Shown here piece by piece: positions 22,163-51,954 of a DNA stretch of 63,659 nt; within the stretch, counting starts at the first letter, position 1; each line of letters starts with the position of its first letter. A program made the translations under genes and the position numbers. The notes beneath the pieces are model-generated. The model was not told the origin of the DNA. It saw nothing but the letters and a program-made list of their open reading frames with translations, and did no database searches. The DNA lies in the IMG/VR virus record IMGVR_UViG_3300045118_000327, positions 1-63,659 of that record. One strand, written 5' to 3'. The DNA comes from a virus.

Positions 22163-22164
22163 TT

Positions 22165-25023: not shown

Positions 25024-25780
25024 ACAATTACGTAAGAAAATGTTTGAGACTGCGGTAAGGGCTGGTCGCGGTCATCTTGGCGGTGCGTTGTCATGCATGG
25101 ACATATTAGTGTCGTTATATTATGGCGATATTGTTACAAATGATACTAAATTTATTTTAAGTAAAGGCCATTCTGGGATTGCTTTATATACTGTACTTGC
25201 GGAACGTAACATTATATCTAACACCGAATTACATACATTCTGCAAAAATGGTAGTTTGTTATCAGAGCATCCTAACAATCATATTCCTGGAATCATAACT
25301 ATAACAGGATCGTTAGGTAATGGACTTGGTATTGGCGCAGGAATAGCTTTTGCCAAAAAACTTAATAATACTCCGGACAATGTTTTTGTATTAATGGGAG
25401 ATGGCGAGTGCAATGAGGGGTCAGTGTGGGAAGCCGTACGTTTTGCAGCTGTTCATGCCCTAACAAATTTACGAGTCATTGTTGATTGCAATGGATTTCA
25501 GTCCACCGATGCTGTGGATAAAAACACCACATATAGACAGTTAATGAAAATATGGTCGGCATTTGGATGGATGTCGTATGTTGTGGATGGACACAATATT
25601 TTGCATTTGATAGAAGCCTATAAAAATGCATCTATAGTAACACCGACAGTTTATATAGCTCGTACAGTAAAAGGTAAAGGAATATCCTTTATGGAGAATA
25701 ATGTAACAAGTCACCACGGATTACCAAATAAGGGTGATACAATTTCTGCATTGGAGGAATTATCATATGGACTTGCGTGA
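25001..25780 (+). CDS. Transketolase-like N-terminal subunit
   Basis: 259 residues. Shows GRGHLGGALS, KGHSG, ITGSLGNGLGIGAG and the ThDP motif GDGECNEGSVWEA...VDCNGFQ: the pyrophosphate-binding half of transketolase. The gene is split from its pyrimidine half, as in archaeal and some bacterial two-subunit transketolases. Overlaps both neighbours. Confidence 0.85.
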   Translation: MDLNLKAKQLRKKMFETAVRAGRGHLGGALSCMDILVSLYYGDIVTNDTKFILSKGHSGIALYTVLAERNIISNTELHTFCKNGSLLSEHPNNHIPGIITITGSLGNGLGIGAGIAFAKKLNNTPDNVFVLMGDGECNEGSVWEAVRFAAVHALTNLRVIVDCNGFQSTDAVDKNTTYRQLMKIWSAFGWMSYVVDGHNILHLIEAYKNASIVTPTVYIARTVKGKGISFMENNVTSHHGLPNKGDTISALEELSYGLA

Positions 25781-26645
25781 TGCTATTTTTAATGAATTAA
25801 TATTATTGGCAGATACATCTAAAGATGTATTTATATTATCAGCCGACATGGGTGCTACCGAATTAGACAAATTTAAAGCAAAATATCCAAAACAATTTGT
25901 CAATGTTGGTATATCAGAACAGAATCTCATAAACGTTGCTGCCGGCATGGCAATGGAAGGTAAGAGAATATATGTATACACTATTGCCGCATTTCTTATT
26001 CAACGTGCCTTAGAACAGATAAAAGTAAATCTATGTGCTATGAAGTTACCTGTTACGTTAATAGGCATCGGTGGTGGGATGAGTTATAGTTATGATGGAT
26101 TAACACATCATATACCACAAGACATAGGAATCTTGAATACATTACCTAATATTGAAATTTTTGTACCTTTTGATGAAAGTAGTATGAGGAATTCGGTACA
26201 TATTCTCAAGAACTCAACGACACCTCGGTATATTCGACTTGACAAAGGAATTTATCCAGACTTACCAGCAATAACTTCCAATAATTATGTTCATGTTTTG
26301 AGGCAAGGAAGAACTCGGGCCGTTTTAACTTATGGCACTTTAACGCACGAAGCATTGGATACTTTTCCGGAGGCTGGATGCATTTGTGTAGAGCGATTAA
26401 AACCATTAGATGAGGGTGAATTTCTGAAAGCCATAAAACCATATCAAGAATTAATAGTATATGAGGAACATTCAAAAATAGGTGGATTAGCCTCTATTGT
26501 AGCATCGCTTTTATTACAACATGGGTTGGACAAGAAATTAAATGTTTATGCGTTTGAAGATGAATATTGTAATATAGCGGGAGATCGTATTTATATCAAT
26601 AATAAATTTTTAAAGAAAGTGGAGAGTAATAATGTCGTGGACTGA
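25767..26645 (+). CDS. Transketolase-like C-terminal subunit
   Basis: 292 residues from the ATG at 25767, chosen for the GGAGG site 10 bases upstream. It contains the pyrimidine-binding domain with activating glutamate in VGISEQNLINVAAGMA and a C-terminal Rossmann domain. Forms the second half of a transketolase with the preceding gene. Two separate ThDP enzymes in one phage sugar island is unusual. Confidence 0.85.
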   Translation: MDLRDAIFNELILLADTSKDVFILSADMGATELDKFKAKYPKQFVNVGISEQNLINVAAGMAMEGKRIYVYTIAAFLIQRALEQIKVNLCAMKLPVTLIGIGGGMSYSYDGLTHHIPQDIGILNTLPNIEIFVPFDESSMRNSVHILKNSTTPRYIRLDKGIYPDLPAITSNNYVHVLRQGRTRAVLTYGTLTHEALDTFPEAGCICVERLKPLDEGEFLKAIKPYQELIVYEEHSKIGGLASIVASLLLQHGLDKKLNVYAFEDEYCNIAGDRIYINNKFLKKVESNNVVD

Positions 26646-27336
26646 TCATGGTGCCGTGAATACAATTAAGGGGTTAGCAAGGGAATTTAAAGTAGAAACA
26701 TATATAGAAACAGGCACATTTCGAGGACAAGGAATACAAATAGCGGCGCGTTATTTTAAACACGCTTATTCATGTGAAATCATTGAGGATTTTTATACTG
26801 ATGTTGTGTTAAGAACTATAAATAAACATAATATAAAAATTTTCCACATGGATAGTTCAAAATTCTTAAAATATATATCTACAACATTAAATGAACCGCT
26901 CATTTATTATTTGGATGCTCATTTTTACGATCCCAGTCTACCTAAAGAATTACGTTTTGTTGTAAAACAAGAATTAGCATCAATGGCCCCATCCAATAAC
27001 TGTATCATTATAATACATGATTTTGATACTAGAAACGGATTAGGCCATATTACATATGACGGCATACCTTTGGATTTTGAGATAGTGCGTGATAACCTTT
27101 TGAAGATAAATCCGCGATTTTCTTTTTATACCAATTATAAAGAAGCCTGCGATATAGTAACCGAGAAAGACTTCATAGATGGTAAAATGGATCCGTTGTT
27201 GCTTGACGATGAAATGAGAGATACGTTAAAATTCATATGGTCAGCCCCACAGAAAACTTATCGTGGGCTATTGTACTGTATACCTAGAGATGTAAATGCA
27301 TCTAAATATCATTTAAGAAAGGTGAATTGGAGATGA
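26632..27336 (+). CDS. SAM-dependent methyltransferase-like protein
   Basis: 234 residues. ETGTFRGQGIQIAA is a class I methyltransferase motif I, CEIIED motif II-like, and YYLDAHFYD the acidic post-motif. Close in layout to sugar O-methyltransferases of the macrocin type. Overlaps both neighbours by 4-14 bases. Likely methylates a sugar hydroxyl made in this island. Confidence 0.7.
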   Translation: MSWTDHGAVNTIKGLAREFKVETYIETGTFRGQGIQIAARYFKHAYSCEIIEDFYTDVVLRTINKHNIKIFHMDSSKFLKYISTTLNEPLIYYLDAHFYDPSLPKELRFVVKQELASMAPSNNCIIIIHDFDTRNGLGHITYDGIPLDFEIVRDNLLKINPRFSFYTNYKEACDIVTEKDFIDGKMDPLLLDDEMRDTLKFIWSAPQKTYRGLLYCIPRDVNASKYHLRKVNWR

Positions 27337-28058
27337 ATGTACTAATAACTGGCGGAACGCATGGTATCGGATGGGCCATCGCTAACAGATTTGCTATCGA
27401 CGACCGTAACGAACATATTTATATAGCTGCTCGACATGTAGATGATTTAGCTCATTCCTATGTATATGAAGGTATACAAGCCGATTTTACGAACACAGTA
27501 GATATAGGAAAAGTTGCTGAACAGATAAAGAATCTACATATCGACATTCTTATAAATAATGTAGGAGGTGGAGGGCGTTGGGGTACAGATGATGTTTTAA
27601 CAACTCCCGAAGAATCTTGGGATGGTGTGATATTAAAAAATTATGAAACGGCACGACAGTTAACCCTGGCCGCGTTGCCGTGGATGAAACAAAATAATTT
27701 TGGCCGCGTTGTTACTATTTCGTCCATCTATGGTAAGGAATCCGGAGGACGTCCGTGGTTCACTGTAGCAAAAGCAGCTGAGATTGCGTTAATGAAATCG
27801 TTAGCGATACGAAAAGAACTGGTTCGACATAATATTACATTTAATACGGTATGTCCTGGTGCGATAGCAATTCCTGGGACGGGATGGGATAAATTAACGC
27901 CGGAAGAAAGAAGTACATTCGAGGAAACATTACCGTTAGGGCGTATGGGAACGCCGGAAGAAGTTGCCGCTTTGGTTTGCTTCTTATGTTCGGAAGAGGC
28001 GAGTTTAATAAATGGAGCATGTATAACCGCAGATGGCGGAGAAAGCAGGAGTTTTTAA
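27333..28058 (+). CDS. Short-chain dehydrogenase (SDR), Tyr-to-Phe at active site
   Basis: 241 residues from the ATG at 27333 (ATGA overlap, AAGGTG ribosome site). Classical SDR features: TGGTHGIG cofactor loop, NNVGG, the Ser in SSIYG, and lysine K147. But the residue four before it, normally the catalytic Tyr, is Phe143 (codon TTC). All other SDR parts are intact, including the C-terminal ITADGGESRSF. Either catalysis is lost, or another residue replaces the tyrosine. Confidence 0.75.
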   Translation: MNVLITGGTHGIGWAIANRFAIDDRNEHIYIAARHVDDLAHSYVYEGIQADFTNTVDIGKVAEQIKNLHIDILINNVGGGGRWGTDDVLTTPEESWDGVILKNYETARQLTLAALPWMKQNNFGRVVTISSIYGKESGGRPWFTVAKAAEIALMKSLAIRKELVRHNITFNTVCPGAIAIPGTGWDKLTPEERSTFEETLPLGRMGTPEEVAALVCFLCSEEASLINGACITADGGESRSF

Positions 28059-29056
28059 TGTTGAGACAATCAGAATACGATGAATTTAGAGGAAAGAAAG
28101 TTTTGGTAATAGGCGGCACAGGATTAATAGGTCGTCCTGTTGTTGATATTTTAGTTAACGCCGGCGCCATCGTTACTGTGGTATCATTAGACGATCTTCA
28201 GCCAAATCGATTAGCAGAATATGTATATTTGGATCTACGATATTTCAATGCCGCAGAGTTTATAACTAAAGGAATGGATTATGTATTTCATTTGGCGGGT
28301 ATCAAAGGATCGATTGAAGTTACAAAAACGAAACCAGCTAGTTTTTTTGTGCCCTTGTTACAATTTAATACAAACATACTTGAAGCATGTCGTATTAATA
28401 ACGTAAAAAAAGTCGCCTTCACTAGTTCTATTGGCGCATACGAAAGTGCTGAAATATTTCACGAAGACGGTATAACGCAAGGGCTACCGATGGATATGTA
28501 TCCAGGTTGGGCAAAGCGCATGGCTGAGTTACAAATACAGGCTTATAAAGAACAATACGGTATTAAAAATTTTGTCGTATTGCGTCCTTGTAATGTCTAT
28601 GGTCCTGGAGATAACTTCGATCCAAATAATGCAATGGTTGTGCCTTCGTTGATGTATCGTATTGCTTCGGGCGAGAACCCTGTAAAAATATGGGGGGATG
28701 GTTCAGCAATTCGTGACTTTGCTTATAATGTAGATGTAGCTGAGGGTATTATACAAGCAATGCATTATATGCCAGATGTAAATTATATTAATTTGGGCAG
28801 TGGCAAGGATTATACAATAAAAAATTTAGTTGATACACTACATGAGTTTATTGATTTCAATCATGAATGGGATACAACAAAATCAAACGGATTTCCAAAA
28901 CGCGTTATGGATATAACGAAAGCGCGTATGTTAATAAACTTTGAACCTATCACTACATTACGCGATGGATTAGAACATACGTGGAAATGGTTTTTAGCAA
29001 ACAAAGAAGAGTATTTAAAGAGAAAGAATTATTTTAATGAAGATAATAGACACTAA
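28058..29056 (+). CDS. NAD-dependent epimerase/reductase, GDP-fucose-synthase-like
   Basis: 332 residues from the ATG at 28058 (TAATG overlap). NAD(P) loop GGTGLIG, active-site SSIGAY, lysine in PGWAKRMAE, then NVYGPGD and IRDFAYNVDVAEGI, which are conserved in GDP-4-keto-6-deoxy-sugar epimerase/reductases. Would act after the GDP-mannose dehydratase encoded two genes downstream. Confidence 0.8.
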   Translation: MLRQSEYDEFRGKKVLVIGGTGLIGRPVVDILVNAGAIVTVVSLDDLQPNRLAEYVYLDLRYFNAAEFITKGMDYVFHLAGIKGSIEVTKTKPASFFVPLLQFNTNILEACRINNVKKVAFTSSIGAYESAEIFHEDGITQGLPMDMYPGWAKRMAELQIQAYKEQYGIKNFVVLRPCNVYGPGDNFDPNNAMVVPSLMYRIASGENPVKIWGDGSAIRDFAYNVDVAEGIIQAMHYMPDVNYINLGSGKDYTIKNLVDTLHEFIDFNHEWDTTKSNGFPKRVMDITKARMLINFEPITTLRDGLEHTWKWFLANKEEYLKRKNYFNEDNRH

Positions 29057-29546
29057 ATTTGAAAAAGCAAAATTAATTATACCAGAGGTATTCTATGATT
29101 TTCGTGGCGAATACTTAGAGACCTTCAACAAAGAGAACTACAAAGCATTAAATGTACCAGATGAATTTATACAAGATGATATTTCAATTTCATACAAGCA
29201 TGTCCTTCGAGGATTCCACGGTGATTTTAAAACATGGAAATTGGTACAATGTGTGTACGGCAGTATATACGTTGTTATTATTGATAATAACAAAGAGTCT
29301 AAAACATATTATCAATGGCAAGCATTTACACTAAATGACAAAAATCGTTATCAGTTATTAGTGCCGCCAGGATTCGGCAATAGTCTGCTAGCTATGACGG
29401 ACATTATCGTGTATAGTTATAAGCAGACTACATATTATGAACGTGCGTCGCAGTTTACTATAGCTCCATTTAATCCTTATCTAGGAATTTACTGGCCGAT
29501 AGCAAAAGAGAACATTATTATATCAGAAAGGGATAGAAATGCCTAA
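29037..29546 (+). CDS. RmlC-like 4-keto-6-deoxy-sugar 3,5-epimerase
   Basis: 169 residues, cupin fold. DFRGEYLETF, FIQDDISISYKHVLRGFHGD with catalytic His61, the Lys of TWKLV, and VPPGFGNSLLA match the RmlC family. It would epimerise carbon 3 and/or 5 of a nucleotide-linked 4-keto-6-deoxy sugar. Overlaps both neighbours. Confidence 0.85.
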   Translation: MKIIDTKFEKAKLIIPEVFYDFRGEYLETFNKENYKALNVPDEFIQDDISISYKHVLRGFHGDFKTWKLVQCVYGSIYVVIIDNNKESKTYYQWQAFTLNDKNRYQLLVPPGFGNSLLAMTDIIVYSYKQTTYYERASQFTIAPFNPYLGIYWPIAKENIIISERDRNA

Positions 29547-30564
29547 TTATCTTATAACCGGTGCCACTGGATTTGTTGGTTCACATATGATTGATTATTT
29601 ATTAGCTAATACTGATGGCATGATTTACGCTTCTAGACGTTGGCGCAGTCGTGACGAGAATATAGTACATTTGTACGGTAATCCGCGAGTCAATTTCATA
29701 GAGGCGGATCTGATGGATCGTGGCAGTCTAAGTTTGTTATTGCGAAAAGCAAAACCAGATATTATTTGGCATTTTGCCGCCCAGAGTTTTCCTGAAACGA
29801 GTTTTATTTATCCGATACATACTTTACAAACAAATATCATTGGAACTGCCAATTTATTAGATGAAATACATCTTGCGGTATTAGATGGCCGTATAGATCC
29901 GATTATAGTAAGTGTTAGTTCCAGCGAAGTATATGGTATGCCGGATCCTTCAGAAGTGCCTATAAAAGAAACTAACCCAATTAGAGCGGCAAATCCATAT
30001 AGTATATCAAAAGTCGGACACGATCTGATGTCACAGTATTATCATAAAGCATTTGGATTAAAAATAATAACTACCAGGATGTTTAGTCACGAAGGTGCAC
30101 GCCGGGGAAGGAAATTTGCATTATCTAGTTTTGCATATCAAATTGTACAAGGCGAAATGCAGTATAGACAAGATATAAATAATCGCTCTTATGGAAATTC
30201 AAAATATATAATTCGTGTGGGAAATCTTAATTCTGTGCGCACTTATGCTCATATAGACGATGCTGTACATGCTTATTGGTTAGCCGCCAATAAATGTACA
30301 GTCGGCGAAGTTTATAATATAGGTGGCAATCACACATGTACTGTCGGTGAAGCATTAAATGATTTAATATCTAAAAGTTATATACAACCAACTGATTTCA
30401 AAATAGAAATAGATTTAGCATTAATCAGGCCTACTGATATTACACTACAAATACCCGATTGTACTAAATTTATGCAAGCTACTGGATGGAAACCAACAAA
30501 AGGTCTTGATGATATAAATAAGGATCTTTTAATTTATTGGAGAAACGTATTGCGCCGGTCGTAA
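29539..30564 (+). CDS. GDP-mannose 4,6-dehydratase-like enzyme
   Basis: 341 residues. TGATGFVGSH, SSSEVYG, YSISK (YxxxK), and TRMFSHEGARRG strongly match GDP-mannose 4,6-dehydratase, which makes GDP-4-keto-6-deoxymannose. This is the entry step for GDP-fucose, GDP-rhamnose, GDP-perosamine or branched sugars; the rest of the island supplies epimerase, reductase, methyl and two-carbon-transfer functions. Confidence 0.85.
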   Translation: MPNYLITGATGFVGSHMIDYLLANTDGMIYASRRWRSRDENIVHLYGNPRVNFIEADLMDRGSLSLLLRKAKPDIIWHFAAQSFPETSFIYPIHTLQTNIIGTANLLDEIHLAVLDGRIDPIIVSVSSSEVYGMPDPSEVPIKETNPIRAANPYSISKVGHDLMSQYYHKAFGLKIITTRMFSHEGARRGRKFALSSFAYQIVQGEMQYRQDINNRSYGNSKYIIRVGNLNSVRTYAHIDDAVHAYWLAANKCTVGEVYNIGGNHTCTVGEALNDLISKSYIQPTDFKIEIDLALIRPTDITLQIPDCTKFMQATGWKPTKGLDDINKDLLIYWRNVLRRS

Positions 30565-36310: not shown

Positions 36311-36982
36311 ATGGCAGTAGAAACAACGTCAACCGTTGCACAATGGGAGTTTAAAACGAAGCATGCACAACAGCAGGATATTTTATTACCTGATGGAAAA
36401 CTCAATAATTTTATTTCTGCAGAATCTATAGTACTTGCCGCAGGTCCGGCAGTCTTTAGTGGGAACGTAACCGACTTAGTTCCAATCGGGCTTACTGACT
36501 CAGCGTCTATACAGCAGAATAAAAATATTATTCAATTATTTGAATTAGGGTCACGTGTACCTTACTTGTTACCAGGTCGAACCTATGCACAAATACAATT
36601 GAATAGAGTAGTATTCAATGGAAATTCGTTGTTGGGAGCTATAACTGATAAATCAACTGCAGTTACTCCAACAACTAGAGACGATGCACCTGGATTTGAA
36701 CAAGCATATAATGCATCGGATCCATCAGTTGAAACAGGCGGTAAATTCTATATGAACTTAGCATCATCATTCTTTAATACACCTTTTGGATTGGCCATTT
36801 TGTATCAAAGCAGCGACACTGTTACACAAATTGCTGAAGGTGCCGGTCCATGGGTCGCAGCTTTTTATGCAGAGAATTGCATGATTCAAAGTCATCAAAT
36901 GACAATACAAGGACAACAATATATTGTTATGGAAAGTGCATTAGTACGCTGTACAAAAATTATACCTATAGAATTACCTTAA
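36311..36982 (+). CDS. Tail tube protein
   Basis: 223 residues directly after the sheath with an AAGGAGA site. Strand-rich, with N-terminal segment and C-terminal ESALVRCTKIIPIELP typical of the sheath-tube pairs of large myoviruses. Forms the inner tube for DNA passage. Last gene of the plus-strand cluster; baseplate and tape-measure genes must lie elsewhere. Confidence 0.75.
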   Translation: MAVETTSTVAQWEFKTKHAQQQDILLPDGKLNNFISAESIVLAAGPAVFSGNVTDLVPIGLTDSASIQQNKNIIQLFELGSRVPYLLPGRTYAQIQLNRVVFNGNSLLGAITDKSTAVTPTTRDDAPGFEQAYNASDPSVETGGKFYMNLASSFFNTPFGLAILYQSSDTVTQIAEGAGPWVAAFYAENCMIQSHQMTIQGQQYIVMESALVRCTKIIPIELP

Positions 36983-37701: not shown

Positions 37702-39743
37702 GATTCAACTTTTATTTTTACGTTTTTTACGTAAAGCTCACCTGCTTCTAACATGCATTTTCGAAGCATAGCTTCGGCTTCTTCAGCCTGAGATTTTTTC
37801 ACGTTTAGTATAATCTCATCATGAATTGTGCAAATAATCTTTGCAGTTGATTTACTTTTTTTTATTTCTTCGCGTATGTGTGTAAGAGCAATTTTTGTTA
37901 TACTAGCATTTCCCGACTGCATCGGAAAATTCATTGTCATATTACGCACGCGAGCGCGCTCTTTATTGGAATCGAAATCGAATCCTTCTAGCCAGCGCAA
38001 TCTATTATCATATGGCGAACGCACACATCTATTAGTTATGCACTTCGCAACATATGCGTCAAAGAAGTTTTTGACGTTTGGGAAACTAGCCCAATAACTA
38101 TTAATTATTTGTCGGGCCTCCGCAAAAGGTATTTTTGCTTCTCTCGCGAGTTTTTGTGCCCCCATTCCATATGAAATTCCGAAATTAAGCGATTTTACAA
38201 TTTTGCGTAATTCAAGATTTTCACCTGGGTCGTCGGGCCCATTAGTACCTTTTAGTCGTATAGGTTTTCCCATAACTACGGAACCAATTTCGCAGTGCAT
38301 ATCTAAATTCTTTTCAAAAATTTCCATCCATTTAGGTTCTTTTGAAAGGTCTGCGAGAATTCGCAATTCCATATTTGAGTAGTCAGCATCTACTAACAAA
38401 TCTTCGTCCGTGTGAGCAACAAATGCTTCACGGTATAGCGATGTATCTTTTACAGGTATATTTTGTAAGTTCATTTTGTTCGAGGTAATGCGTTAAATTA
38501 CCTCCGGAATATTTTCCAGCTATATATTACTATATAGATCAGACTATTTCATCACAAATGTGAGGTGTATTTCGCGATACTTATCGCTACGTCTTTCGAC
38601 TAGTCGTTACACGTTTCTTAAGTCGGTGTTTAGATTTCCACAAAGATAAAACAATCTTCTTAAGTTTAGCTCGAGATTGGCTCTTTGAGCGTTTCCTCGA
38701 ATTAGCACCTTTTTGTTTAATTTTCATTAAACCCCCAATATTTTAGGGTTTTTACTGCTATACCTGCCGGTATCAGTTTCGGCTTGATTAAATTCAGTAT
38801 GTATTAATCCAGTTAGTTCGTGTATATTTTTTAAAAACGCTTCACCATAAGTAGTTACACGTTTTTCCATTCCACGATAATATAACAACGCATCGATAAT
38901 GGGATGACTAATTTCTTTCAATTCCCCTTCACGAGTCGTTGTGATATTTTTGTCGACAGCCGTTTGTAGCACGTTAAGTAACTGTTTTGGGCTGTTATAA
39001 TTAATAATAGGTCTTCCAAAAATGTCATTTTCGATATACGGTATCAGCATTTTATCTAACTTATCTAAGGCAACAGTTCTTTCACGTTTTGCCACAGCTT
39101 CAGCTGCTAGCCATTTGGTACGGTCTATTTTCATACCATTTAATTCCATATCACCAGTAGCCATAATAACACCCATCTCAGTATTTATAACCTGTTGCAA
39201 ATTATCTCTAATTATAAGTTTTTGTTGGGCGTCCATTATTGCTGCCAAATGCTTTATATCACCTGCCGCATATTCAACTTGTGGGGTACTTATTGCATCC
39301 CCGTAAGACATATTTTGAAACGTCTGGCGTACTGTTTTATTTAACAAAACACCGGTATATTTTTCACTTACTACATCTAATCCGAACCCGGACATTTTTC
39401 GCCCTTTTTGTAACAATTGTTCGGCTAACATAGTATCAAATATATTTTCTGTTTCTATACCCAGGTCTCTTTTTAGGAATTTATAATCAAATTTTGCGTT
39501 ATGCATTATTTTCGTTATGCTTTGACTCTCAAAGAAGGGGCGTAATAACTGGATGCTATCATGTAAACGTGCGACATCAAAGACATATTGTTGATACATA
39601 TTTCCCATTTGTATTAACAATATTTTATCACGTATGGCATCAATGCCTGTAGTCTCTGTATCTACGTTTATTACTTTCAAAGTCTTTAGAAAAGTTAATG
39701 CCTCATCGAATTCTTTCCCTGTGGTTTTTATAAAATGTACCAT
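37674..39743 (-). CDS. Family A DNA polymerase, interrupted by a group I intron
   Basis: Two exons, 39743-38745 (333 codons) and 38471-37674 (265 codons), give a 598-residue polymerase after removal of 38472-38744. Exon 1 has the 3'-5' exonuclease (D28-x-E30 in NVDTETTG, HNAKFDY, and AAGDIKHLA) and the thumb. The exon junction restores SSKNP-NLQNIP, a hallmark of family A. Exon 2 holds motif A (DADYSNMELRILA), motif B (RKIVKSLNFGISYG) and motif C (IHDEI). Without splicing, exon 1 ends at a stop a few codons into the intron. It is the replicative polymerase candidate of this phage. Confidence 0.9.
38472..38744 (-). mobile_element. Group I intron in DNA polymerase gene
   Basis: 273 nt. P1: exon end AACCCU pairs with the internal guide GGGGGUU, with U-G at the splice site; the intron ends in G (AAAATG). 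Near its 3' half lie ACGACTAGTCGAAAGACG and GAAATAGTCTG, which resemble the R and S core elements of T4-type introns. It is a compact intron with no endonuclease; a 46-codon, Lys/Arg-rich frame (38587-38727) starts within it but may be chance. Splicing is exact at a codon boundary. Confidence 0.85.
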
Positions 39744-40544
39744 TTAATCTTTCAGATTCTCGAGTTTTCGTCTACGGTTTAATCTACGTAGATCTTTTAT
39801 AGCTTTGTTTCTTAATTGTCTTATACGTTCTCTGGTAAGACCTAGTTTTTCACCTATTTCTTCCAGTGTATAAGTTCGTTGTGCATCGAAACCATAATAC
39901 ATTTTTAATATAGTACGTTCTCGTGTAGGAATCAATGCCAACACATGACGTATTTCTTGTTTCAATGCATCTTTTAATAAAGCCGCATCAGGAGATTCGC
40001 CGTCTGGATTAGGTAGCAAATCAATAAGCATAGTACCCTCATCTATGATGGTATGGTAACTTACACTTGATTGACGCACAAGATCTTCGGCTTCCAATCC
40101 CAACTCTGCCAATACTTCACCCGAAGACACCTCTCTATTCAACTCCTGTTCCATCTGCATTATCGCTTTATTGTATTGTTGTAATATACCAATTCGATTG
40201 GCTGGCAACCGAATTTGTCTATTGTGTTCAGCTAAAGCAAATAATATAGATTGTCTGATCCACCATGCGGCATAAGTCAGGAATTTAGTACCTTGATCTG
40301 GATCGAAGCGATCAATAGCTTTTAAAATACCTAAATTTCCTTCGGCAATTAGATCTTCTAACGGTATTCCTTGTCCTACATATTGACGAGCCACTGAAAT
40401 GACGAATTTCAGATTGGACGCAACGAGATGATGCTGCGCTTTTTTATCTCCCTGTTGTGCACTCAGCACCATCTCTGTTTGTTTATCTGCGTCTAATACC
40501 CCATATTTTGAAACATCTTTAAAATAGGTATTTAATGCGTTCAT
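39744..40544 (-). CDS. Sigma70-family RNA polymerase sigma factor
   Basis: 266 residues with regions 2, 3 and 4 but no region 1.1, like short primary-type sigma factors. Region 2: DLIAEGNLGILKAIDRFD and YAAWWIRQSI; region 4: TLEEIGEKLGLTRERIRQLR helix-turn-helix. Stop and the polymerase start are adjacent. It probably directs RNA polymerase to phage promoters; the GGTATAAGA motif is an attractive candidate target. Confidence 0.9.
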   Translation of the reverse strand: MNALNTYFKDVSKYGVLDADKQTEMVLSAQQGDKKAQHHLVASNLKFVISVARQYVGQGIPLEDLIAEGNLGILKAIDRFDPDQGTKFLTYAAWWIRQSILFALAEHNRQIRLPANRIGILQQYNKAIMQMEQELNREVSSGEVLAELGLEAEDLVRQSSVSYHTIIDEGTMLIDLLPNPDGESPDAALLKDALKQEIRHVLALIPTRERTILKMYYGFDAQRTYTLEEIGEKLGLTRERIRQLRNKAIKDLRRLNRRRKLENLKD

Positions 40545-41345: not shown

Positions 41346-41951
41346 TTAAAATCGTCTCACAAAGGAAGCGGTATTTTGCTCTCCGCGGACCACATTAAGG
41401 AGGTATTGAGCCCCGATATTAGCAACTATACGATTACCCAGTTGTACAATACCGGCTGATAGTTCGAAAGCTAATTGACAGCTTCCCGAACCCGAATCTT
41501 CTGCCGAACCTAAGGTGTTTTTAAGTTCAGCTAAAGTATTTTTCGGATTTTTTGCGAAGACTGCTATTGATTTTCCTTCTGATCTTAGATCTATCCATTG
41601 CTTATCAGTATGCTCATCCATGTATTCAAATAACATCGCCCGGAACTCCCGATTATCTACACCACAGATAACAAAGTCGTAAGGATCGAACTCTTTTTTT
41701 GTATTTATATATTTTTTCTTAAATGCCATGCCATAACGCTTACCCAGTACTTCGGCTTTATTTTCCAATTGATCTTCAAATTGAAAATTTTGATAAGGTA
41801 AATTTTTCTTTTCTACCTCATCACCATCAAATACGGTAAATTCCCAAAATAACGGTATTTGTTCTTTCGTGATCAAATCCGCTATTAGCTGTATAAGCCA
41901 AGAATTTATACCTCCGGCCCCAGCTATCATAACGTTTACACGCTTTGGCAT
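41346..41951 (-). CDS. E1/ThiF-like ubiquitin-activating-type adenylyltransferase
   Basis: 201 residues. Rossmann ATP loop GAGGINS (11-17), acidic D42-x-D44 in VFDGDEV, N50 and Q54 (NLPYQNF), K65, and CGVDNREFR with D99. These are the core positions of E1/MoeB/ThiF enzymes, which adenylate the C-terminal glycine of a ubiquitin-like protein. C158 (SGSGSCQLAF) is the best candidate catalytic cysteine. The usual Arg before the Gln of the NLNRQ motif is Tyr here. The final helix (QLGNRIVANIGAQYL) resembles ThiF proteins of the PRTRC gene clusters. The gene begins at the base after the stop codon of a small protein ending in Gly-Gly. Confidence 0.85.
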   Translation of the reverse strand: MPKRVNVMIAGAGGINSWLIQLIADLITKEQIPLFWEFTVFDGDEVEKKNLPYQNFQFEDQLENKAEVLGKRYGMAFKKKYINTKKEFDPYDFVICGVDNREFRAMLFEYMDEHTDKQWIDLRSEGKSIAVFAKNPKNTLAELKNTLGSAEDSGSGSCQLAFELSAGIVQLGNRIVANIGAQYLLNVVRGEQNTASFVRRF

Positions 41952-42161
41952 TTAACCGCCTAATGTTGTATGAGTAAGTGTTATTATTTGTGCTTGCTGC
42001 AATTGTTCCAATGTTACTGTTTTTGCATTTACTTCCTGTCCATCCAAAAACAGCCAACGATGGTTACGCTCTACTATTGTTTGTATATCTTTAAGAGCTT
42101 CTTCATCGTTCTTTTCACGGATATCCATACCCGTTGATGTTATAAGTTGATATTTTATCAT
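41952..42161 (-). CDS. Ubiquitin-like protein ending in Gly-Gly
   Basis: 69 residues: strand (IKYQLITSTG), helix (EEALKDIQTIVERN), strands (RWLFLDGQEV, then AQIITLTHTTLGG). The order fits a beta-grasp fold, and the last residues TLGG end exactly at the stop codon, as in mature ubiquitin, ThiS and MoaD. Directly followed by an E1-like gene and coupled (ATGA) to the large gene before it. Inference: it is activated by that E1 at its terminal glycine for conjugation or sulfur transfer. Confidence 0.75.
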   Translation of the reverse strand: MIKYQLITSTGMDIREKNDEEALKDIQTIVERNHRWLFLDGQEVNAKTVTLEQLQQAQIITLTHTTLGG

Positions 42162-44101
42162 TTAGTTTGTAAAGTTGTAATTTCATTAGCCAATCTAGAA
42201 TCATTTGCTAACGCAAACATTCTATTAACTAATCGTGCGATATTTGCATGCTCATTTTGTCCTTTGTCAACCATGCATAAATATTTCCCACTTGGATATT
42301 CAAAAACTCTTATTGTAGAAGTCTCTACAATATATTCTCTTAATTTACCTTTAACAGTGTAACCACTGACGACCCGCCCGTTGTCTAGTAAAGCATCTTC
42401 CATTTTTTGACAGTTAAATAAAGCAATAGTCTGTGAAAGCATTTCTTGTTCTTTAGTGCGTTCCTCAGCCCATACCTTACGCCCAGTCTCGATAATATAT
42501 TTGATGTCGGATCCAGTAATTCCTACTATATCCGGATCTACTAATATATCAATTATTCGACTCATTGAGGTTACACCGATCAAATTGAGCAGCTTGTTGG
42601 AGTCTTTTACCACATATTTTGATTTGTCTCCAAATGAGATATAATTTCTATTTTTATCTCTTTCCAATCCAATTTTGAAGTCAACGGTTTCCCCAGTTAT
42701 TTCGTCGAGTGCTTGTAATATTATACCGGCTGCTATCGCGCGATGATATCTTAGTGAACACTTACTAACGCTTTCCAGGTAGTTATCGTAGTCCTCATCT
42801 TTATTGTAACATAGCGCTCTCGGTAATACGTCGACAAGTTCGTCTTTATTTATGCGGTAGTCATTTATATAGTTGGTGACCATTGTGGTTCCGGCTGAAT
42901 TTACCTTTTTACGAACTTCCAAAGTAACATTAATGTTCCCAATCTGCATTTTCACTCTGCCGGAATTTTGTGCTTCCGTAATTACTGTTTTGCAGAATGC
43001 AGTAAATATATTCTCAAAATTGAACGAATCATCCCGAAGATTGCGTATAAAGTTACCAAGGAGATATTTAACTTTCACATTATTACTTTTTATTATATGA
43101 GATTCATATTCAATAGAATGCGCTTTAAATGTTACGTCATTAAACGTGAACTCTCCACCAGTTTCTAATTCAGCTATCTTATCAGTGAGTTTCTTTTGTA
43201 TTCCGGCTTGTGCCTTTTCTACTACCGCATCTTCTATTTTCTTTCGTTCATCACGCTTTGCTATCATAGTTAGAGTGGAATTTTCAATTACAATATGTTC
43301 ATGGCCACGTATATATTTATTTAATGCTTCTTCTTCGGGAAATTCAGGATCGGGGCCAATATAGAATACCTTAGGTTGGCCAGTCTTCTCATTCTCATTA
43401 CTACAATACCTATCAGGGTCAGTCCAATTATATGAAGCATTATCCGGTTTTGTAATATAGAATTTTATGGAGTAACCAATCATAGTTGTTCTACAGCCAT
43501 GATTTACTTCTGCATATAAAGCTATTCTGGTATCATCCATTAATTGTATAACGTCTACAATATAATGAATGTAGTCAGGCAATTTTTCATATTTATTAGG
43601 ATCATTAAATAATGATGGTTTATATTGATCTAGTTTATTACAAAGCCAATATAGAGTTTCTATTTTTATTTGTGTCAAAGCAAAGTTACTAAGAAATGAC
43701 GGTAAGTCATTATCTAGAATGTGTTGTTTTAGATCGTCTAGGGTCGAAAACTCTTTTGCTTGTTGTTCTTTATTTCCAATGTCCCCGATAATATTAATAT
43801 ATTTTATATCTTCCTGCTTTGGTACGAATTTTAAATAATATCGCGCATTGCGTAATTTAAATAATTTATATCCAAATTTTTTAGCAGTTGCGTCCGGTAG
43901 TTCAAGATATAAGGCATCATCATACCCGTTAAAACGTAATACCAAATCCTTATTATTTGGTCCGGAGTTATAAATATATGTAAGATTTGAGCCTTTAAAC
44001 ATTGTGAATAAAGCGTCAAATAAATCACGCTCTATTTCTGTTATATTAAGGCCATAAATGTCGTTATAAATCTGTAGGTTTTTTATTAATATTTTACTCA
44101 T
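42158..44101 (-). CDS. Large protein of the Ubl/E1 cassette, unknown family
   Basis: 647 residues, the first gene of the three-gene cassette. No family recognised. Visible features: acidic and Lys-rich regions, a strand-rich middle (about 290-420), Cys-containing stretches (around 430-470, SKCSLRYHRA), and a compact C-terminal domain (about 560-640) with TIRVFEYPSGKYLCMVDKG. It could be the conjugation target, an E2/E3-like partner, or a particle protein; the sequence does not decide. It starts 8 bases after a tRNA-Ser gene. Confidence 0.65.
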   Translation of the reverse strand: MSKILIKNLQIYNDIYGLNITEIERDLFDALFTMFKGSNLTYIYNSGPNNKDLVLRFNGYDDALYLELPDATAKKFGYKLFKLRNARYYLKFVPKQEDIKYINIIGDIGNKEQQAKEFSTLDDLKQHILDNDLPSFLSNFALTQIKIETLYWLCNKLDQYKPSLFNDPNKYEKLPDYIHYIVDVIQLMDDTRIALYAEVNHGCRTTMIGYSIKFYITKPDNASYNWTDPDRYCSNENEKTGQPKVFYIGPDPEFPEEEALNKYIRGHEHIVIENSTLTMIAKRDERKKIEDAVVEKAQAGIQKKLTDKIAELETGGEFTFNDVTFKAHSIEYESHIIKSNNVKVKYLLGNFIRNLRDDSFNFENIFTAFCKTVITEAQNSGRVKMQIGNINVTLEVRKKVNSAGTTMVTNYINDYRINKDELVDVLPRALCYNKDEDYDNYLESVSKCSLRYHRAIAAGIILQALDEITGETVDFKIGLERDKNRNYISFGDKSKYVVKDSNKLLNLIGVTSMSRIIDILVDPDIVGITGSDIKYIIETGRKVWAEERTKEQEMLSQTIALFNCQKMEDALLDNGRVVSGYTVKGKLREYIVETSTIRVFEYPSGKYLCMVDKGQNEHANIARLVNRMFALANDSRLANEITTLQTK

Positions 44102-46231: not shown

Positions 46232-47026
46232 TTAAAGTGTTTTAAATTGTTCTTTTATCATCTTCGCAAATGACGTGAATACTGGCGAAGATGATAAATC
46301 TGTTTGCCAGGCCAACCCATTTTCTACAAGATCATAAGTATGTTTAATATAAGCTCCTGGTATTGCTTTGTTGTTTTCATCACGATCGCGCCCCATTAAC
46401 CACAGAATATCGGAGACTTTAATAGCTGCCCGATGATCGTGTGTGATTACTATAATGGTATTTAATTCATGTAGGTTTGCGACTTCGGTTATTAATGTAC
46501 AGATTTCATCTATCATTAAAGGATCAAGTCCAGAAAAGGGTTCATCCATCAATAAAAAATGTTCGCTACATAGTAATTGTTGTATGATGGCTATTCGTTG
46601 CCGCTGTCCTCCAGATAACTGTGATGGGTATAAATGTGTCTGTGCTTTTAAATCAAACCGCTCCAGAAATATACGTGCTTTTTCAGGAGTATCCTTTCTA
46701 TTTCGCCCAGCCAACAGTAAATTGGAAATAACTGTGCGATGTGCGAAGAGAGGATAGTTCTGAGCTACGACGCCAACACTGCCGGGGGTTACTTCTATAT
46801 TTTTCTCAGTGATACGAACTGTTCCTGTCGTGGGCTTCTGCAGACCAGATAGTATACGAAATAGTTGAGTTTTGCCTATTCCTGATGGGCCCAATAATCC
46901 TACAACTTGCCCATGTCCGACGTTATTTTTAATTTCGCCGTTTACATTTTTGAGAATCTGTCGATTGCCGTATGTTAAAGAAACGTTTTCTATACGAAGC
47001 AAAGTTTCTTTTGTTATCCGTTTCAT
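46232..47026 (-). CDS. ABC transporter ATPase, NitT/TauT type
   Basis: 264 residues from the ATG at 47026 (ATGA overlap with the permease stop, which decides the start). Walker A GPSGIGKT (46-53), signature LSGGQ (137-141), Walker B LLMDEP (158-163), switch His196. It is the energy unit for the permease encoded immediately before it; the pair belongs to the nitrate/taurine/aliphatic-sulfonate importer class. The five genes run as one operon from 51376. Confidence 0.85.
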   Translation of the reverse strand: MKRITKETLLRIENVSLTYGNRQILKNVNGEIKNNVGHGQVVGLLGPSGIGKTQLFRILSGLQKPTTGTVRITEKNIEVTPGSVGVVAQNYPLFAHRTVISNLLLAGRNRKDTPEKARIFLERFDLKAQTHLYPSQLSGGQRQRIAIIQQLLCSEHFLLMDEPFSGLDPLMIDEICTLITEVANLHELNTIIVITHDHRAAIKVSDILWLMGRDRDENNKAIPGAYIKHTYDLVENGLAWQTDLSSSPVFTSFAKMIKEQFKTL

Positions 47027-47808
47027 GTTCTTTCCCTCGTAATAAATGCGTATGGACAAATAGTTTTATTTAGAGCACCGATAGCATAATCAATAAATAA
47101 ACCTAATACAAAGATAGTTATTTGAATAGCAAAAATATCTGCTAATTCAAAATGTTTGTTACTATCAAGTAAAAATTTACCTACACCGCCCTCGGATCTA
47201 GCAACTCCTTCAACCATAGTAAGCATCATCCATCCCATAGCAAAGTTTTGTTGTAATACCTCGATTGCATCGCTAGCGCGCCCCAAAACAATGATTTCAA
47301 ATACTGCGCGCCATTCGTTCATTTGTAATGTACGTGCATAGTCGAACTCACTTTTTGGAATTGCTTCTATAACCGCCATCATTGAAGTGACGAAAAACAC
47401 GGACATACCAAATACTTCCAACATCAATTTAAGTTGGTGCCCACCACTAGCGATTAACGTAAATAAAAATGTAAAACCAACTAGTCCTAAAAAACGACCT
47501 TTTGTCACAAACATTGCTATAGGTCTGAAAAAAGGCATTACTGTTGCATATGTCAATCCTAATGAAACGATCAATGTAATACCTATCGCTTGCAAACATA
47601 AAATAAAACTTGTGATAAGTTCTTGCCCGAAACCATTGTACCATATCTTGCTAAAGCTAGCTAAAACTTCTAATGGTTTAGGAACCACGTATGAGGGCCA
47701 AATCCACCATACTGCAACAGCTATGGCAAGTTGAATTGCTGCCATAGAAGTCATAATTGATTTGGACATAACCTTGTTTGGTGAAAACATTTCCAATGTA
47801 AGGTTCAT
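47023..47808 (-). CDS. ABC transporter permease, NitT/TauT type
   Basis: 261 residues with about six membrane spans. The coupling (EAA-like) loop is in the YARTLQMNEWRAVFEIIVLG segment, which contacts the ATPase. Lies between the substrate-binding/OmpA gene and the ATPase gene. Confidence 0.8.
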   Translation of the reverse strand: MNLTLEMFSPNKVMSKSIMTSMAAIQLAIAVAVWWIWPSYVVPKPLEVLASFSKIWYNGFGQELITSFILCLQAIGITLIVSLGLTYATVMPFFRPIAMFVTKGRFLGLVGFTFLFTLIASGGHQLKLMLEVFGMSVFFVTSMMAVIEAIPKSEFDYARTLQMNEWRAVFEIIVLGRASDAIEVLQQNFAMGWMMLTMVEGVARSEGGVGKFLLDSNKHFELADIFAIQITIFVLGLFIDYAIGALNKTICPYAFITRERT

Positions 47809-47826
47809 TTTATTCCTTGAATTAGA

Positions 47827-47853
47827 GCAACCGCCAGGATTACTGACGGTTGC
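47827..47853 (-). promoter_or_regulatory. Intercistronic stem-loop after substrate-binding gene
   Basis: GCAACCGTCAG, loop TAATC, CTGGCGGTTGC: 11 base pairs with one G-U in the minus-strand RNA, without a T run. Such stem-loops after binding-protein genes commonly protect the upstream RNA and lower expression of the permease. Confidence 0.55.
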
Positions 47854-47877
47854 CCGAAATTTTTGATTACTTGTGAA

Positions 47878-49668
47878 TTACTCTGTGCCAGTTACTATTT
47901 CGACACGTCTGTTTTTGGCACGTCCTGTCTCTGTATCATTGTCAGCCACTGGCCGGGTTTGACCGTGTGCAACAATATTTAATCGACCTTCCGGGAATAA
48001 ATCTTGGTATTTCCCTTCAAGCCAATACTGTACAGCTTGTGCGCGATCTGCCGATAAACGCATATTTCCTTCAGGAGTACCAGTATTATCAGTATGTCCA
48101 TGAATTACAGCTTTCAATGACAAGCTGACCGCAAGCTCATCTTTTAATGCTTCGAGAGTGTTCTCTTGGCCTGCACGTATAGCTGATCTACCGATTTCGA
48201 ATTGAATACTATATTTACGTTTGCCGACAACTTCTTTTAAGGTACTTCCCTTTTTGAACGTAAAACGATCTGCCGTAGAGGTATTTGTGTTGGTTTCTTT
48301 TGCAACAGCTAATACATACGAACCATCGATAGCGATTTCTGGCGCTGGTACGCTTGGTACAAGTTTTGGATATTGCTGAATTACAACATTACCAAATGCG
48401 ACGTAGGTAGATTTAAATAATCCCGAAGGACCAAACAAAAGTACCATATCTGCAATATTGTTTGGTTTTGAACCGCCTAATTGCACTACTGAACCGTGTT
48501 TATTTAGTTCTTCTGTACCATCATGATATCGTAACCAGTATTCAGCATCCTTCTCCTTATATACACTGGCCGAGATTTCTGCTGCGCGTTGTTTTGCGGC
48601 ATCGTATCTTTTTATTTGATCTCCGGCTTCGCCAATAGCTCGAAGCATTCCTTCAACCATTTTACGATTGTCTTTGCACCACACATCGATCCCAATAATA
48701 GCATTTGGCATTTGCCCCGCATATTCACGTGTGCTTACGATATTTATGATATCTTGGTCGCATTGTTCGACGACATTCACATCACCAGGAGTCCAAGTAA
48801 CTGTACCTTGAACTTTGATACGTTGTGTTTTTCCAGTTTTCTTGCCATTAATAACTACTGGACGATCTTCTTCATATCCCGCAATTAATTTAGCTGGCGC
48901 ATCTAAAAAGTCATTAGCAGCAACCCAATTTACAGCATTAGGATCGTAAGTGGTTTCATCAGGATTATTTGGAATGCCGTTGTCACCAGTATATTTCATT
49001 GCAATATTCCAGTCGCCATCTCGTAGATAACCGGATATGACACAACCGCGCATAGACCCAGGATTCTTTTTCCACTCCGGTGGCCCCATCAATTTATCTT
49101 CACCATAAGAATAACCGGCTGAACCTATGACTTTAGCACGATATTCAGTGCCGAGTTTTTCTAGTACTGGATTGAGTGCGGCTATAAATTGTGCAGCACC
49201 ATCTCCCATTACAGCAACAAATGCAGGTTTTTCTGATGGATATGGATTTCCGTCTTTGAGCTCAGTTGCAAATGCCACTAGGTCTGCCTTCATTTTTTCA
49301 CAATCATCTTGTCGCTCTAGTGTAATATTAACCCCGTACTTTTCCATAAGCGACCCCGATGTGGTAACAATACCACCATTGGCAAGCATCAGAGAAAACT
49401 GTGAATTCCAGGCCATTATTTCATACTTGAAAGTTGTGTTTGTAGCAGGTGCTGGGTCTGCCGACGGAAGCGGAAGTTCCGCTGCAATACTTTTTGTATT
49501 TGCAATATTTCCCAGATTTACCCTTTTTGCTACAACTGCCTTGGCGGGTTCTTTGCCGGGAATATATTGGTTAAGAGGTCCAAAAAATAACAAATAGAAT
49601 AATGTTCCAACTATTGCCATAATAATAAGCAGCCTTCCGGCTGGGCGTATTCCGGTTCCTTCGTTCAT
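47878..49668 (-). CDS. Substrate-binding protein fused to OmpA peptidoglycan-binding domain
   Basis: 596 residues. Membrane anchor at 13-29, then a substrate-binding-protein fold over about 70-430 (ABC importer type II), a linker, and an OmpA-like domain from about 490 (HGHTDNTGTPEGNMRLSADR, then HGQTRPVADNDT and NRRVEI) that binds peptidoglycan. Sits directly upstream of the permease gene and so probably feeds it. A binding protein tethered to both membrane and cell wall is a rare design, here in a phage. Confidence 0.8.
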   Translation of the reverse strand: MNEGTGIRPAGRLLIIMAIVGTLFYLLFFGPLNQYIPGKEPAKAVVAKRVNLGNIANTKSIAAELPLPSADPAPATNTTFKYEIMAWNSQFSLMLANGGIVTTSGSLMEKYGVNITLERQDDCEKMKADLVAFATELKDGNPYPSEKPAFVAVMGDGAAQFIAALNPVLEKLGTEYRAKVIGSAGYSYGEDKLMGPPEWKKNPGSMRGCVISGYLRDGDWNIAMKYTGDNGIPNNPDETTYDPNAVNWVAANDFLDAPAKLIAGYEEDRPVVINGKKTGKTQRIKVQGTVTWTPGDVNVVEQCDQDIINIVSTREYAGQMPNAIIGIDVWCKDNRKMVEGMLRAIGEAGDQIKRYDAAKQRAAEISASVYKEKDAEYWLRYHDGTEELNKHGSVVQLGGSKPNNIADMVLLFGPSGLFKSTYVAFGNVVIQQYPKLVPSVPAPEIAIDGSYVLAVAKETNTNTSTADRFTFKKGSTLKEVVGKRKYSIQFEIGRSAIRAGQENTLEALKDELAVSLSLKAVIHGHTDNTGTPEGNMRLSADRAQAVQYWLEGKYQDLFPEGRLNIVAHGQTRPVADNDTETGRAKNRRVEIVTGTE

Positions 49669-50708
49669 GATCGATTCTTTCGTAAATATTTGGATGTTGT
49701 GGTTGATTGTGATTTTGATTCTATTGGCACTTGTTGCGCCGAGGGTAATTCGTTTAACAAAGGAGCGAGTTCTTCATTACCGACAAGTAATGCTTTTGTG
49801 TCGCCTAGCAACAAACTATCTACTTTGCTTTCCCATAATTCAAGTTCCTTTAATGTGTCTGCTTCAAAGGCCATATTAGCTAGATCAACACCCTCAATAA
49901 ATGGAGTTGCAACTTCCATGAATTGATCGATTTCTCCAAGTTTCTGCCCATAATCATTGAGTAGATTTTCAACTGTTTGATCATATAGCTTTTTATCATC
50001 AGATGCATCGCGAATAAAGGACATTGCCGCAGTCATGGCTTTGTGACCAGTGGTTACTGCCGCGGTTTGTCGCTCGAGAGTATCTACATTTTGTTTGATG
50101 TCTTCATACATAAATTCAGAGACTTCTCGCATCTTGTTCAACATACGCATCAAACTCTCCAGCTTTGTGTAGAGCTGCTGTAACGTGATGTTTGATTCTT
50201 TCAACCTTCCAGCACTACGTGCATTTAATACTAATGCCGCTTTTTTACCAGAAGTTTTTGCCGCCTTTGCCATCGAAATAGACCGCTGACGATCTCTCTC
50301 GTTGGTGTCAATGGTGACTTTTAATTGCCCCATCTGACCTCGGAGATTCTTTATTTGTTTTTCAATTAAGACAAGTTTATCAGCTAATTTATCTACATAA
50401 TTTTTTAATATACCGATCGGATCAATAGTAATGAAAATCCCAGTGACCCAACGCATAATAAGTTTAAATGAACCAAAAAATAAGGTCCAAAATCGCTTAC
50501 TTGTTAAGATCGTACCTACAATAACTACAGTCATAAAAAGAAACGCTGCCGTTAATGTATTTTCTAACAAACCAATAATAAATGGTAATGCTAGATTTAG
50601 TCCGTATAAAGCTGCCGCCGCTAATGCTACTGCGACAATCATACCAAATGTGCCCTCTTTGCGTTGCCAGAATGACTTCGCGAGACCATCAGATAATCCT
50701 GGTGTCAT
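49665..50708 (-). CDS. Membrane protein with long coiled coil
   Basis: 347 residues. Three hydrophobic spans between 20 and 100, then a long coiled coil (about 110-260) and a short tail. ATGA overlaps on both sides. Probably an envelope scaffold for the neighbouring transporter; function unknown. Confidence 0.6.
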   Translation of the reverse strand: MTPGLSDGLAKSFWQRKEGTFGMIVAVALAAAALYGLNLALPFIIGLLENTLTAAFLFMTVVIVGTILTSKRFWTLFFGSFKLIMRWVTGIFITIDPIGILKNYVDKLADKLVLIEKQIKNLRGQMGQLKVTIDTNERDRQRSISMAKAAKTSGKKAALVLNARSAGRLKESNITLQQLYTKLESLMRMLNKMREVSEFMYEDIKQNVDTLERQTAAVTTGHKAMTAAMSFIRDASDDKKLYDQTVENLLNDYGQKLGEIDQFMEVATPFIEGVDLANMAFEADTLKELELWESKVDSLLLGDTKALLVGNEELAPLLNELPSAQQVPIESKSQSTTTSKYLRKNRS

Positions 50709-51376
50709 TAACGTGCCTTTCTCTTTTGCGTTGAAGTTGTTTGTGTTGCTAGATATGTTTTTATTTTTGTTTCTTGCTCTCTAATTGCAGTACGTACCGA
50801 ATCGAGCGTAGCAGTAAATACATCTTTTTGCGCAGACAATTGTTGCTCCTCTTGTGCGGCACCAACCAATAAATCATTAGCTTGTACTTTTAGCTTCTCG
50901 ATTTGATCATTTAATTCTGCAATGGTATCATCGATCTTTGCCGCTTGATGTCTTTTTGTATCAATACCTTTTTGCGATTCGGACAATTCAGCATCAAATT
51001 GCTCCGATGCCGCATCTACAGCACTGAATTTTGCGGTAATAGCATTTAATAAAATTTCTACACTTGCTTTTCCTTGTTTTTGCAAAGCAATAAAAGCAGA
51101 TTTAAATCTAGCAGACTCATCGGCAATAGCTTCCGATAATGACTCGACAAGACCATAAAAATCCGACAGGACTGATGGCGTTGCTTTATCAACATCTGCA
51201 ACTATTTGTTGCAGAATTTCTTCATCAACTGTCTGACGTCCAGGCTTAATACTTTTTTGTGCGGGCGTTGCCATTTTTTCGGGCGTGGCCAGCTGCTCAT
51301 CAGCAGAAGGGGTTTCTTGCCCAGAATCTGGAGCAAAATTCCAGAACGGGGATAGCGCCTTCTTTAGTACATTCAT
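50708..51376 (-). CDS. Coiled-coil protein, first gene of the transporter operon
   Basis: 222 residues, acidic N-terminus rich in Pro/Thr/Ala, then a continuous coiled coil of about 150 residues, recalling PspA- or TelA-like partners only in shape. AGGAGA ribosome site. Its 5' leader contains a pseudoknot-like structure. Confidence 0.55.
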   Translation of the reverse strand: MNVLKKALSPFWNFAPDSGQETPSADEQLATPEKMATPAQKSIKPGRQTVDEEILQQIVADVDKATPSVLSDFYGLVESLSEAIADESARFKSAFIALQKQGKASVEILLNAITAKFSAVDAASEQFDAELSESQKGIDTKRHQAAKIDDTIAELNDQIEKLKVQANDLLVGAAQEEQQLSAQKDVFTATLDSVRTAIREQETKIKTYLATQTTSTQKRKAR

Positions 51377-51486: not shown

Positions 51487-51880
51487 GATAATCTCCCCAT
51501 ATTTATTAGGCGTCGAGAGAATAATACGCCGTCCGGATAAAAATTTATCCCTCTGGCAGGACTCAAACCTGCAGCATTACTTTTAGTCTACTGACAGTCA
51601 GTTCCGTTTGTAAGCGTTCGACAGGGAGTAGTAAAGATCCCATTCTAATTTTCAATTGAATATTCAGCCGCTACGCAACTAAACGTTCGTCGCATGACAA
51701 TTGGTTTAATCGCTTCATCCTAGTTATTCTTCCAATACACTTGCTCTGAACTTGACCATAAAGAACAGTCTATACTGGTAACTCGATGCTGTCACCTACT
51801 AATTCAATCTAGTGACTTAGTAATGTATATTAATACGTAACAAATATACATCTCTTTTCATTTCACCACAGAGGAATAAG

Positions 51881-51954
51881 TGTCTGCGACGGGGAACGAC
51901 CCCGTGTAACTAGTTTTAGAGACTAGTGCTTATTTCGTTCTCGGCCACGCAGAC
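51881..51954 (-). tRNA. Amber suppressor tRNA (anticodon CUA)
   Basis: 74 nt. Acceptor GTCTGCG/CGCAGAC perfect, anticodon stem CTAGT/ACTAG perfect with loop CTCTAAA (CUA), T-stem ACGGG/CCCGT. The D arm is weak and lacks a clear GG. The CUA anticodon reads the UAG stop. It is embedded in the large structured RNA region. TAG is used as stop by only a few genes here (17754, 45557, 52946, 53488). Confidence 0.7.

Follow-up and report, generated by a model that had tools for sequence, protein, structure and literature searches.

The three-gene cassette of the window, the complete 63.7-kb stretch analysed here (a linear IMG/VR fragment, IMGVR_UViG_3300045118_000327, positions 1-63,659), encodes a ubiquitin-like protein (Ubl), an E1/ThiF-like adenylating enzyme and a large partner protein, termed BIG. 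The components, their conserved catalytic residues and their co-conservation are shown by sequence and by structural models, and the same set, usually accompanied by a matching JAB peptidase, is found again in dozens of other viruses. The reading favored here, with a probability of about 0.58, is that of a virus-encoded system for Ubl activation and conjugation, in which BIG serves either as thioester acceptor/ligase or as the main target. This activity is inferred: no biochemistry is available, no target is known, and the record is only a fragment.

The window originates from a large tailed phage with a contractile tail. Its structural genes include a terminase with an intein-like insert, a major head protein and a tail sheath, and it further encodes a sigma-70 factor, a polA-like polymerase, recognized by motifs and synteny, and 14 tRNA genes. 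The cassette is read from position 44101 to 41346 on the minus strand, giving proteins of 647, 69 and 201 aa. The TGA of the BIG gene (42158..44101, −) overlaps the start of the Ubl gene (41952..42161, −) as ATGA (42161-42158). The Ubl ends in ...THTTLGG followed by TAA, and the ATG of the E1 gene (41346..41951, −) is the very next base (41951). The three genes, their coordinates, the ATGA coupling and the GG-stop-ATG junction given in the preliminary description thus hold exactly, all on the minus strand. The cassette lies by the sigma factor and polA, outside the tail operon; the sigma-70 gene (39744..40544, −) is its downstream neighbor, as it is in the related loci L086, L033, L111 and L113.

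In most relatives the module comprises four genes, encoding the large protein, the Ubl, a JAB/JAMM peptidase and the E1, in this order in the window-type loci L033, L034, L111, L113 and L130-L149. The earlier description as a three-gene cassette is corrected in this respect: a JAB gene lies between those of the Ubl and the E1 in most relatives. A second group (TFB-type) has, as observed in L018, a GroEL-like gene and a gene for a TFIIB-like Zn-ribbon protein, from which archaeal hosts are inferred as probable; its genes follow the order Ubl, "mid", E1, JAB with looser spacing, "mid" being a shorter protein of about 370-490 aa. The Pfam Prok-JAB model scores above cut-off for the peptidases of L033, L034, L111 and L117, and in the second group the identification rests on the JAMM motif HTHP...SxxD. 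Neither the window-type nor the TFB-type loci yielded an E2-like PRTRC_B protein, which leaves BIG/"mid" as the sole constant extra partner. Usable relatives came from alignment-based patterns; single-protein scans of viral contigs with the E1, BIG, polA and sigma sequences gave none.

For the 69-residue protein, a beta-grasp fold had been proposed and set as a test, and it is borne out by the AlphaFold2 model built with 29 aligned homologues (order E-E-H-E-E-H-E, pLDDT 87), in which the GG tail is free of secondary structure. The best Foldseek matches are mostly SUMO, Get5, ubiquitin, NEDD8 and ISG15, with probabilities up to 0.99; the E-values get no better than about 0.01, which is no surprise for a protein so small and diverged. 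The PDB profile search with the family gives few matches, all weak, one of them being ThiS (E 0.09), which aligns through to its C-terminus. Only G11, G68 and G69 are invariant in the 29 aligned Ubls, the last two being encoded at 41955..41960 (−). Because the first nine seeds had been picked partly for their GG ending, the profile was rebuilt without the C-terminus. All 41 ORFs matched by this stripped profile carry GG within their last 11 residues, against a background of 54/2407 among other ORFs of Ubl size, and the same holds for 45/45 matches in later-added loci, some of whose contigs overlap the earlier set. Conservation of the terminal GG is thus beyond chance and extends to every homologue found, so that the outcome named beforehand as a refutation, homologues without it, was not seen. 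A profile built on window-type Ubls only recovers nearly all TFB-type ones, with E-values of 1e-6 to 1e-11. Both the beta-grasp order and the exposed C-terminal (G)G expected of a ubiquitin-like modifier are present, and the protein is likely to be one; this assignment rests on the model, and covalent attachment to a target is inferred.

The E1 is recognized by Pfam ThiF (PF00899) with 39.4 bits against a cut-off of 28.1, over residues 4-194. It carries GAGG (11-14), D42, D44, E47, N50, Q54, K65, D99, N100 and C158, which vary little or not at all in an alignment of 95 E1s. Apart from gaps, G11, G13, G14, D42, D44, N50, K65, D99 and C158 are invariant even when E. coli MoeB and ThiF are included. 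The cysteine of the SGSCQ motif, C158 (codon at 41478..41480, −), is present in 94 of the 95 sequences, the remaining one having a gap there. The ATP loop, acidic residues, lysine, D99 and candidate cysteine noted at first reading are thereby confirmed. The Arg finger (NLxRQ) is the one superfamily feature that is not met, its position being occupied by Y53 (41793..41795, −). This substitution had also been pointed out, but the alignment corrects it from an oddity to a clade trait: of 36 viral E1s of window type or TFB type, 35 have Tyr, whereas 52 of 55 PRTRC-type rows have Arg. Conversely, R123 (41583..41585, −) is present in 38/38 viral-clade E1s, including those of crAss001 and FpV4, and is replaced by Gly in 52/55 PRTRC-type rows. 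In the E1 tree, a branch with SH-aLRT 92 (not starred) separates the window-type, TFB-type and crAss/Flavobacterium-phage enzymes from the PRTRC E1s of bacteria and phages. Since the loss of the Arg finger characterizes the clade, superfamily membership rests on the profile score and the other residues (GxGG, D, K, D(N)). On these grounds the protein is a genuine member of the ThiF superfamily with ATP site and transfer cysteine intact. Tyr53 represents a lineage signature of the viral E1 clade and not damage; that R123 stands in for the lost Arg finger is conceivable, and is an inference.

The third protein, BIG, matches no family above cut-off in Pfam, PHROGs or NCBIfam, and neither a PDB sequence match nor a Foldseek fold match in the PDB was obtained. 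Its model has a mean pLDDT of 69.7; confidence is low throughout the N-terminal half, and residues 320-640 mostly score 80-92. The family comprises 24 distinct proteins, found beside the Ubl and/or the E1, with a divergent N-terminal half and a conserved C-terminal domain. Four residues are invariant in all of them: C609, D228, G459 and Y581. The first of these (YPSGKYLCMVDK, codon at 42275..42277, −), conserved in 10/10 and then 24/24 members, lies in the C-terminal domain, residues 530-647, within YPxGxYxC[MI]VDK...ALxNDS and is retained across proteins at about 20% identity. The "mid" proteins of the second group are homologous to BIG according to hhalign (94-95%, with controls at ≤0.3% except for one 28-column match at 43%), and the matching Cys (ICID) is present in 28/28 and 46/46 sequences. 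Foldseek searches against viral models returned three unnamed proteins of 416-452 aa, the size of the "mid" family, with probability 1.0. The large protein, proposed earlier as a partner, thus holds as a constant companion in the relatives, and the HMM search suggested for its family remained blank.

An E2 should show an invariant Cys in the partner protein and an E2 fold around it. The first property is met (C609 24/24, "mid" 46/46). The second is not, as the Foldseek search against the PDB gave no match and hhalign to PRTRC_B only 0.1%. The likeness between GxYLCMVD...ALANDS and the motif GxICLD...LLxDP was considered as an indication that BIG is an E2, and was rejected: the fold search and the hhalign comparisons with PRTRC_B and crAss gp78 (two gp78 sequences only) were all blank. 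A relation of the BIG C-terminus to DUF7737 was likewise set aside, with E-values of 0.008-0.014 in two of ten, below cut-off, and the Cys absent from the one DUF7737 sequence examined. C609 is regarded as the likely thioester acceptor, which is an inference made in the absence of the E2 fold. It could be objected that BIG is a substrate and not an enzyme, modified directly by E1 and Ubl, with C609 playing a structural role. The strict gene neighborhood, the lack of any E2 and the combination of a divergent N-terminal half with a conserved C-terminal domain would agree with this; however, a single invariant Cys at about 20% identity points more to a catalytic residue than to a target modified on lysines, which makes the substrate-only explanation improbable.

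The window copy departs from most of its relatives in having no JAB gene, as first noted and now confirmed both by Pfam and by profiles built on the relatives' JABs. Pfam likewise detects no JAB anywhere in the records of L017, L041 and L118, and the profiles detect none in the sequences flanking the L205 and L152 cassettes; in L152 the junction is also like that of the window, with the E1 ATG directly after the Ubl GG-stop. The Ubls of relatives carry 0-9 residues after GG, and that of the window already ends at GG without a tail. The JAB-less Ubls all end exactly at GG, and where post-GG residues occur (L033, with NAN after IGG, and most of the second group) a JAB is present wherever the flank is complete. 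These rows are related, so that the pattern is suggestive only and does not count independent events. The closest relative, L086, whose E1 shares 51% identity with that of the window, has the same four-gene order followed by sigma-70 and polA, as in the window, and its JAB is interrupted by an in-frame TAA. Amber recoding of this split gene was considered and discarded, the stop being TAA and not TAG. The L086 contig also has a gene resembling the window's 36311-36982; it is filed under a Methanomassiliicoccaceae MAG, and, being a phage contig with a bacterial sigma-70 and a polA-like gene, is probably mis-binned. Taken together, the window module is best described as a reduced form from which JAB has probably been lost. 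The missing JAB and its TAA-cut counterpart in L086 could also be read as decay, with the rest of the cassette on its way out. This is very unlikely, considering that the E1 residues, the GG and C609 are all intact and that the JAB-less form recurs in L017, L041, L118, L205 and L152, the last repeating the GG-stop-ATG junction.

In the conjugation reading, Gly69 of the Ubl would be adenylated by the E1 and the Ubl then carried as a thioester on C158. It would subsequently be passed on to Cys609 of BIG, acting as an E2/E3 equivalent or being itself the chief acceptor, and BIG may attach it to proteins of the virus or of the host in the course of infection. In the relatives, JAB would trim the tails after GG and reverse the modification; in the window, with JAB lost, the Ubl would be made ready to use and the modification would be one-way, unless reversal is provided by a host enzyme or by one encoded outside the fragment. 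Several observations weigh against this reading: BIG has no E2-like fold match and no PRTRC_B or crAss gp78 profile match, its model is good only in the C-terminal half, and without JAB the strongest sign of conjugation is gone for this copy. A bolder version, namely that BIG/"mid" are Ubl-conjugating enzymes of a new class distinct from E2s, with a fold of their own and an invariant catalytic Cys, is held more tentatively and falls short of an even chance; the same reserve applies to its extension, a complete E2-independent pathway formed with the viral E1 and Ubl in large bacterial phages and in TFB-bearing, probably archaeal, viruses.

The main alternative is a sulfur carrier system, in which the acyl-adenylate of the Ubl is converted to a thiocarboxylate, as in ThiS, MoaD or TtuB, and BIG uses the sulfur, e.g., for RNA or cofactor thiolation. 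Consistent with it are the weak ThiS profile match of the Ubl family, the alignment of C158 with the Cys conserved in E. coli ThiF, the 14 tRNA genes of the virus and the fact that the window form, having no JAB, can do without deconjugation. Against it, most relatives have JAB peptidases and tailed pro-Ubls, and the nearest cellular E1s belong to PRTRC, a predicted conjugation cluster. Moreover, neither a rhodanese (PF00581) nor a PP-loop ATPase (PF01171) was found in the window, which is a fragment, with ThiG and MoaE outside the search. As a general explanation sulfur transfer is unlikely, yet it remains possible, above all for the JAB-less form. The choice between conjugation and sulfur transfer, left open in the preliminary description, is not settled by sequence, with the relatives' JABs and tailed pro-Ubls favoring conjugation and deconjugation. 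The mass spectrometry of Gly-Gly remnants proposed there would fail with trypsin, because the last Lys/Arg of the Ubl is K47 and a 22-residue remnant would be left. Overall, that interpretation is supported, with the corrections given above.

Several known systems are comparable to the viral module. Iyer et al. in 2006 (PMC1779556) described operons of bacteria that combine E1, E2, JAB and Ubl genes, as well as the TAPI-JAB pair of lambda. PRTRC clusters of plasmids and phages (TIGR03735-TIGR03738; cf. operon type 6d, PMC1779556) have in common with the viral module a Ubl with C-terminal Gly, a ThiF-type E1 and a JAB. The window, in contrast, lacks the E2-like PRTRC_B, a PRTRC_C match and JAB, contains BIG instead of the PRTRC proteins, and has an E1 of a separate clade that lost the Arg finger and gained R123. 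PRTRC_ThiF, the top NCBIfam model for the E1, reaches 45.3 bits, far under its cut-off of 144.75, and PRTRC membership is not met; tblastn of the E1 in phages and plasmids retrieves PRTRC-type and crAss-type E1s at 24-46% identity. A Bacillus phage, KLEB27-3, encodes near its PRTRC_B, PRTRC_A and E1 genes a polyubiquitin-like precursor, gp199 (OM634661; L016:1931-2638), in which a PRTRC_C-like Ubl repeat of 57 aa with VKG at its end occurs four times in tandem, in near-identical copies. The crAss001 gp76-gp79 and Flavobacterium FpV4 ThiF clusters are, as here, virus-borne combinations of E1, JAB and a small-domain protein, and their E1s are sister to the window clade and share R123. They differ in the long C-terminal extension of the Ubl-like domain, in the Gly (Tyr in the window) at the Arg-finger position and in gp78, two sequences of which show no homology to BIG. 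The Ubl-looking N-terminal domains of crAss001 gp79 (L004:2241-2918) and of the FpV4 protein (L008:1610-2479) head JAB-E1 clusters and are blank in Pfam; that of FpV4 ends in KSGG before the extension.

CBASS Cap2/Cap3, which carry out Ubl-type conjugation of cGAS (PMC10097602), likewise place a prokaryotic E1 and a JAB around a reversible modification. Cap2, however, is an E1-E2 fusion attaching cGAS, whereas the window has its own Ubl and a single-domain E1 of 201 aa, with ThiF over residues 4-194 and no E2 domain. In the tail assembly of lambda and T1 (TAPI-TAPK, PMC1779556), a phage Ubl-like protein likewise has a JAB partner, but no E1 is described, and the genes lie in a tail operon, not by a sigma factor and polA. 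ThiF was noted as prevalent in archaeal viruses in the RaFAH host-prediction paper (PMC8276007), whose sections on ThiF, JAB and ubiquitin describe no Ubl, JAB or large partner. No earlier description of the module was found in the open-access literature searched, which leaves out most subscription papers and preprints. Since the module would work like the known cassettes but fails the PRTRC, E2 and Cap2 tests, it is called a variant and not a member.

The Ubl systems known from prokaryotes are mainly defense cassettes of bacteria or cassettes on plasmids. Here, two very different viral groups carry a Ubl with invariant GG, an E1 and usually a JAB, and the place of the E2 is taken by an unnamed partner. 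If the module does conjugate, Ubl transfer would have a minimal, testable route that needs no E2, and one would have to ask which proteins, of the virus or of the host, receive the tag. With Tyr for the Arg finger and an invariant Arg newly gained, the E1 clade provides a natural experiment in E1 chemistry.

Other features of the window deserve mention. A group I intron (Rfam RF00028, 69 bits) at 38520-38754 (−) splits the polA-like gene between NP and NLQNIP. A tRNA with a CTA anticodon lies at 51880-51954 (−), and the stop codons of the 65 listed genes are TAA in 47, TGA in 17 and TAG in one, so that amber reassignment or avoidance is possible. The terminase large subunit (6452-9112, +) has an apparent intein, with the terminase match at 511-877; its residues 138-270 match a thymidylate synthase family, probably via a shared intein. 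An envelope cluster unusual for a phage, at 46232-51376 (−), encodes an ABC-transporter ATPase, a permease-like protein and a protein in which a long N-terminal part accompanies an OmpA domain. Between the structural genes, a long block at 18686-30564 (+) contains genes for sugar-nucleotide epimerases together with TPP-enzyme-like, radical SAM and glycosyltransferase-like genes.
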